DNA of 44,374 bases, taken from assembly GCA_028683595.1 (NCBI GenBank), contig JAQUHM010000002.1:1-44374 (forward strand), read 5' to 3'. Shown here piece after piece: positions 1,875 to 18,121 of the stretch. Below the pieces are notes generated by a model. The model had not been told where the DNA came from. It did no database searches and saw only the letters and a program-made list of their open reading frames with translations. The position numbers and the translations under genes were made by a program. The stretch comes from Geobacteraceae bacterium. GTDB lineage: Bacteria > Desulfobacterota > Desulfuromonadia > Geobacterales > Geobacteraceae. Numbering within the stretch: the stretch's first letter is position 1; the number at the start of each line of letters is the position of its first letter.

Positions 1875-2075
1875 ATGGTGGTGATACTTGTGAACGGCGA
1901 GCGGAAAGAAGTTGGACCCCTTTCGGTTCTCGGGCTCCTGGAGATGCTGGAGATTGACCCGAAGCGGGTGGCGGTTGAGCTGAACCTGGAAATACTTCCG
2001 AAACCGGACTTTGCTACCACGACTCTTCAGGATGGCGACCGCGTGGAAATCGTTCAGTTTGTCGGTGGTGGCTAG
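1875..2075 (+). CDS. thiS: sulfur carrier protein ThiS
   Basis: 66 aa, ends in ...VEIVQFVGGG with C-terminal Gly-Gly; AAAGGAGG RBS; downstream of TPP riboswitch. Confidence 0.94.
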   Translation: MVVILVNGERKEVGPLSVLGLLEMLEIDPKRVAVELNLEILPKPDFATTTLQDGDRVEIVQFVGGG

Positions 2076-2293
2076 TTAGTTTTCATCCGGAAAGTCTTGG
2101 CAGGGGCCGGGTTGGAACTTGCCCGAAGCCTCTCGTAATCGGTCACCACCTGTTACGCTGATCAGCTAACATGCTGGTTTCAGGCTATTTTCTTGCTGTT
2201 GCAATCGTGCAATGAAGCCGTACGAGAGACTCCGTGAAAGCCCCAACCCTCCACGGAACAGCACTTTTTCAGTTTCCGGATGAAAACTGGCTA
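2073..2293. repeat. intergenic element with long terminal inverted repeat and nested internal inverted repeats (MITE-like or structured RNA)
   Basis: AGTTTTCATCCGGAAA (2078-2093) is the perfect reverse complement of TTTCCGGATGAAAACT (2273-2288), extendable to 21 pairs with two G-U; inner GGGTTGG/CCAACCC and CTCTCGTA/TACGAGAG pairs. Confidence 0.75.
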
Positions 2294-2335: not shown

Positions 2336-3118
2336 ATGGCAGACCCAAAAGATACACTGGTTATAGCAGGAAGAAAGTTTACTTCCCGGCTCATGGTGGG
2401 TACCGGCAAATATGCCGATTTTCAACAGATGGTGCAGGCTATCGAGATGTCCGGGGCTGAGATCGTCACTGTTGCTGTTCGAAGGGTGAATATCTCTGAT
2501 CGGAACAAGGAATCCCTGCTTGATTATCTCGATCTGAAGAAATATACCCTGCTGCCCAACACTGCCGGATGTTACACCGCTGATGATGCGGTCCGTACCT
2601 GTCGTCTGGCACGGGAGGCAGGGCTGTCGGATTTTGTCAAGCTGGAAGTTCTCGGCGATGAGAAGACCCTGTTCCCGGATAACGAAGAGCTTCTGAAGGC
2701 TGCAAAGGTGCTGGTTAAGGAGGGTTTCACCGTTCTTCCCTACACGAGTGACGACCCGATTCTCTGCAAAAAGCTGGAAGATCTGGGCTGCGCCGCGGTT
2801 ATGCCCCTTGGGGCTCCTATCGGCAGTGGCCTCGGCATCCGGAATCCCTACAATATCCGCATCATCCTGGAAACGGTGAAGGTTCCGGTCATTGTCGATG
2901 CAGGCGTCGGTACTGCATCGGATGCTGCCATTGCCATGGAACTGGGCTGTGATGGTGTGCTCATGAATACCGCCATCGCGGGCGCCAACGATCCCATTGC
3001 CATGGCAGAGGCCATGAAACTGGCAATCATTGCCGGGCGGCTTTCCTACAAGGCGGGAAGGATTCCCCGCAAGCTCTATGCAACCGCTTCCAGTCCTCTT
3101 GACGGGCTTGTCGAATAG
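2336..3118 (+). CDS. thiG: thiazole synthase ThiG
   Basis: ThiG motifs ([55 protein letters not shown]); start chosen at ATG 2336 after AAAGGAGC. Confidence 0.95.
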
Positions 3119-18082: not shown

Positions 18083-18121
18083 CAGTAAGGAGTGCGCCAT
18101 CTTCAGGCGCACTCCTTACTG
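18083..18121. terminator. perfect 16-bp palindrome between convergent anti-sigma gene and greA (candidate bidirectional terminator)
   Basis: CAGTAAGGAGTGCGCC-ATCTTCA-GGCGCACTCCTTACTG; no clear T tract. Confidence 0.55.

Follow-up and report, generated by a model that had tools for sequence, protein, structure and literature searches.

The thiS-thiG Junction

The window, i.e., the whole stretch of 44,374 nucleotides of Geobacteraceae DNA that was analyzed, contained a TPP riboswitch at 1676–1782 on the plus strand (Rfam RF00059, 66.9 bits), followed by thiS at 1875–2075 and thiG at 2336–3118 on the same strand. Both genes were taken from the list of open reading frames. The thiS frame, whose relatives were aligned by tblastn, ended in VGGG followed by the stop codon TAG (2073–2075). 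The thiG gene started with the ATG at 2336, its relatives in the genus encoded ThiG proteins that were 89–96% identical, and its ribosome-binding site AAAGGAGC was kept 3' of an insert. The insert was found to be an element of 211 bp (2078–2288, plus strand) bounded by a 16-bp terminal inverted repeat (TIR). The left TIR, AGTTTTCATCCGGAAA, was present at 2078–2093 on the plus strand and the right TIR at 2273–2288 on the minus strand; the two were exact reverse complements, as originally predicted, and both were matched by ends found genome-wide. The TIRs of the whole family were AGTTTYCATCCGGAAA. The element was shorter than 500 bp and, as had been noted from its reading frames, contained no gene.

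The original prediction had described paired ends of 21 bp. Two G-U pairs and three more pairs do extend the pairing to 2073–2093/2273–2293, but the outermost five of the 21 pairs were found to consist of target-site and flank sequence and lie outside the element. The paired ends start at the thiS stop codon and stop 42 nucleotides before the ATG of thiG, close to the predicted spacing. The 6-bp repeat TGGCTA, which had also been recognized, was present on the plus strand at 2069–2074, overlapping the thiS stop codon, and at 2288–2293, and it represents the target duplication. The left copy of TGGCTA lies at a greater distance from its TIR than the right copy because the left end of the element contains a 4-bp tandem duplication, TAGT TAGT (2073–2080, plus strand); comparison with the other copies suggests that this duplication arose after the insertion.

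Two further helices were nested between the TIRs at the predicted positions. The arms of helix 2 were present at 2109–2115 and 2243–2249 and those of helix 3 at 2130–2143 and 2217–2228, with compensatory changes across species in 6 of 7 and 7 of 12 pairs, respectively. The single-sequence fold of the element was modestly better than that of shuffled sequences (z −2.0, 7/200). The window contained two perfect 16-nucleotide inverted repeats within 400 bp, against none in 30 shuffled windows; the second one, with a short loop, was found at 18083–18121. A scan of the insert (2078–2288) for promoters and terminators found nothing, and the TPP riboswitch was the sole match in the Rfam search, which assigned no family to the element.

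Dispersal of the Element

The source assembly, consisting of 486 contigs with 6.5% contamination, was found to contain 41 copies of the element, most of them 90–96% identical. About 100 oriented copies were gathered from the source genome and its relatives. When the 16-bp end was searched in the source assembly with up to two mismatches, 164 matches were found, against one for a reversed control pattern; these copies and matches are the strongest evidence that the element is real. All eight genomes of the genus that were searched contained lineage-specific versions of the element, and the search for dispersed copies that had been proposed for the locus was positive in the source genome and in the relatives alike. 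Across the phylum, the end (at most one mismatch) was present in 61 of the 247 genomes sampled; some genomes contained more than 100 ends, and the controls were near zero. The GTDB contigs with an element end included those of Geobacter, Desulfuromonadales, Desulfobacterales, Desulfonatronovibrio, and Desulfonatronospira; single matches in other taxa may be due to chance. Neither the element nor its end gave a useful match in IMG/VR or in phages and plasmids, and the end sequence was not described in the literature that was searched. The repeat class is very abundant in Geobacter relatives and other Desulfobacterota and was apparently undescribed until now. As far as searched, the element is new as a described family, and it is ordinary in kind.

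The length between paired ends was 31, 53, 75, 172–180, 200–213, or 220–249 bp. At L027 (754–1185), two 211-bp copies were found head to tail with a few bases between them. Hairpins of 31–32 bp with intact ends and a target duplication were found at L059 (750–780), L094 (1502–1532), and L277 (503–534); they are apparently remnants of larger copies that underwent internal deletion.

Target Duplication, Empty Site, and Stop Codon

Of the 59 end pairs, which span 31 to 249 bp, 48 agreed in at least three of the four flanking bases, a count that carries a small bias since the best-matching right end was taken where several were possible. The consensus of flanks and ends was T-ANNT-[A GTTT ... AAAC T]-ANNT-A, and that of the target was TANNTA. 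On the sequence alone, a duplication of ANNT (4 bp) is indistinguishable from one of TANNTA (6 bp); three end pairs of the genome G037 were read as 5-bp duplications (ACTCT, ACACT, and AGAGT).

The empty site that had been proposed as a check in sister species was found in three relatives (G003, G005, and G006) with ThiG 93–96% identical. In these genomes, thiS ended in GGTGG(T/C)TA(A/G), and a short spacer without an insert separated it from the thiG ribosome site; the stop context in G006 was GGCTAG. The insertion therefore fell on the thiS stop codon. The element starts with (A)G, and its G remakes TAG straight after the target duplication; therefore, thiS is intact and ThiS retains its C-terminal Gly-Gly. 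The thiG ribosome site was unaffected by the insert, and we infer that the thi operon still works.

The insert had alternatively been read as a cis-acting structured RNA that sets the expression of thiG relative to thiS. The nested helices with their compensatory changes and the location in an operon 3' of a TPP riboswitch are in favor of such an RNA. However, the same sequence was found at about 40 unrelated loci, and this dispersal already largely refutes it; moreover, the thiS-thiG spacers of close relatives were devoid of the element, the better fold was that of the strand antisense to the thi genes, and no Rfam family matched. A regulatory RNA of the thi operon is, in our judgment, very improbable, and the covarying helices are a property of the element family rather than of the operon.

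Of 210 element ends at the loci collected, 31 had a junction TAG that terminated a reading frame of 100 codons or more; the other two frames gave 9 and 6 such cases. For 22 of these 31 ends, the stop codon was already there in the joined empty site. The frequency of remade stop codons (22 of 210 ends) was above that at non-coding TANNTA sites (33/1335) but not above that at non-coding TANNTAG sites (15/197). A special recognition of stop codons by the element need not be assumed: there is no enrichment over TANNTAG, and therefore the target preference together with the loss of insertions within genes suffices. This gives a simple reason for harmless insertions in operons, as a TANNTAG target is often a stop codon and is remade by the first G of the element.

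A different palindromic repeat, CAGGTTGTTGAAAAACG...CAGTTTTTCAACAACCTG, was found in the thiS-thiG spacer of Geotalea (L121 and L118) and represents a separate insertion event at this junction. The assembly of the window (G000) contained three thiG genes (C136, C305, and C200), of which the other two were 89% identical to the ThiG of the window. Most relatives contained two thiG genes, and some of the three in the source assembly may reflect its 6.5% contamination.

Insertion Sequences with the Same Ends

A complete insertion sequence (IS) of 1,688 bp was found on contig 220 of the genome G237 (L381), with TTAATT followed by AGTTCCCATCCGGAAA at one end and TTTCCGGATGGGAACT followed by AATTAA at the other. 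It was located through the phylum scan, in which G237 was the one genome listed as having both ends of a single variant at a distance of 1.69 kb. Its only long ORF encoded 453 amino acids and matched the ISNCY family transposase NCBIfam NF033593 with 487 bits (cut-off 325) as well as Pfam DDE_Tnp_1. A second IS copy (L160) contained both ends in the same geometry and a transposase 60% identical to that of L381, with imperfect flanking repeats; in both, the transposase was bounded by ends of the element type. Fragments of transposases related to that of L381 were found beside the end at L231, L390, and L391. These three loci and L160 were obtained solely because they carry the element end. ISRm17 of Sinorhizobium meliloti (transposase 51% identical) has the ends AGTGCCCATCC (AGTGCCCATCCATAAAC / GTTTATGGACGGCCACT) and a 5-bp repeat, AGTCT. 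The element resembles ISNCY sequences of the ISRm17 type in its TIRs, which start AGTKYYCATCC..AAAC, and in the A..T duplication of 4–5 bp. It differs from them in being 211 bp long and without a gene, and only the TIRs are in common, as in a Type II MITE; by inspection, no similarity between MITE and IS ends was evident beyond the TIR.

No ISNCY transposase was recognized in the eight genus genomes, and their PF01609 (DDE_Tnp_1) hits were not homologous to the L381 transposase. No transposase was found inside end pairs in G000–G007, G037, G041, G045, and G047, and the PF01609, PF13701, and PF01797 transposase loci in relatives had no genuine bounding ends. The long end pairs at L083, L180, L251, and L277, considered as transposase carriers, proved to be ordinary genes or chance. 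Since no ISNCY transposase was recognized in the genus genomes, the MITE copies of the genus appear orphaned, gaps in the assemblies being possible.

The dispersed copies, the TIRs, the target duplication, the empty site in relatives, and the autonomous IS with the same ends bear out the MITE reading of the original prediction. The element is almost certainly a non-autonomous DNA transposon with the TIRs of an ISNCY-family (ISRm17-like) insertion sequence. Judged from sequence comparison, these ends very probably define a class of MITEs mobilized by ISNCY/ISRm17-like elements, and a repeat class abundant in Desulfobacterota (61/247 genomes) is now tied to a defined transposase family. The copy between thiS and thiG would have been moved by this class of transposase. 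An ISNCY-family DDE transposase would be supplied in trans, presumably recognizing the element ends, and would cut a site resembling TANNTA, which at the thiS stop codon is TGGCTA. The element would then insert with duplication of the target site, its (A)G start remaking TAG, so that the Gly-Gly of ThiS and the thiG ribosome site would be kept.

Dispersal by a single-strand transposase (Y1, RAYT), as a family of REP/BIME-like palindromes, would agree with the derivatives that are 31–32 bp hairpins and with the Y1 transposases common in the genomes examined, but it is highly unlikely in view of the matching variable duplications on both flanks, which are unexpected for Y1 transposition, the Y1 loci generally not bounded by element ends, and the ISNCY IS with the same ends. 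No RAYT mobilizing the element without target duplication was seen. At L012 (1195–1885), a REP-associated (Y1-type) transposase gene was found 0.6 kb from an element copy.

Comparison with Known MITEs

Chunjie is a MITE of G. uraniireducens; the copy in one of its two phosphate operons measures 235 bp, and the others 178–235 bp (PMC10969869). An alignment of the two phosphate operons in G041, taken as strain Rf4, yielded Chunjie-1. The element could be regarded as a copy of Chunjie, since both occur in the same host family, belong to the same size class, are intergenic and similar in copy number, and lie within an operon without breaking it. However, the ends of Chunjie-1 (CAGCGTTGTCCGGTTTGGTTT) and its 9-bp repeat (GCTTTTTTT) both differ from those of the element, in which neither the Chunjie TIR CAGCGTTGTCCGG.. 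nor a 9-bp duplication was found, and such an identity has hardly any probability left. The Correia/NEMIS and ERIC MITEs are short, palindromic, and intergenic and fold in transcripts, and some are substrates of RNase III or RNase E (PMC10969869). The element is likewise a short palindromic intergenic MITE but differs from them in sequence and host.

Covariation and Folding of the Interior

The interior, whose covariation was unexpected, was examined in an alignment of 40 non-redundant 211-bp family members taken from several genomes. Both arms of helix 2 changed in concert, from GGGTTGG/CCAACCC to GGAGCGG/CCGCTCC, and in the G002 clade, CTCTCGTA/TACGAGAG of helix 3 gave way to a different complementary pair. 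Double pair-preserving changes were found in 114 cells, against 39.7 (sd 5.6) in shuffled alignments and 12–28 with the partners slid. For the 211-bp family, the minus strand, which is antisense to the thi genes, gave the better consensus fold (−22.7 vs. −13.1 kcal/mol).

A sister MITE of 178 bp (L050, 2059–2236, and 67 other copies) was found in Geobacterales, Desulfobacterales, and Desulfonatronospira. It resembles the element in its TIRs and duplication and differs in its interior, which is unrelated, strongly conserved, structured, and covarying in the 68 aligned copies, from Geobacterales to Desulfobacterales. Its consensus fold was likewise better on the minus strand (−39.3 vs. −13.7 kcal/mol).

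The G-U:A-C gains on the minus strand were counted in a tree-aware manner as single changes away from a Watson-Crick pair. They were 15:6 and 24:12 for pairs predicted on both strands, and only 27:21 (211-bp family) and 49:29 over all predicted pairs. This suggests selection on RNA or single-stranded DNA in the interior, and the MITE may contain a conserved structured RNA; the interior probably has structure that is under element-level selection. The covariation could alternatively come from hairpin-templated repair of the palindrome, which by itself would favor neither strand. We put forward only tentatively, as a rather doubtful proposal, that the ISNCY-type MITEs of Desulfobacterota may carry a conserved structured RNA of one strand (or a strand-specific fold of single-stranded DNA); compensatory mutation would preserve at least two unrelated interiors (211 and 178 bp) in different species, and these would travel as cargo flanked by the same ends.
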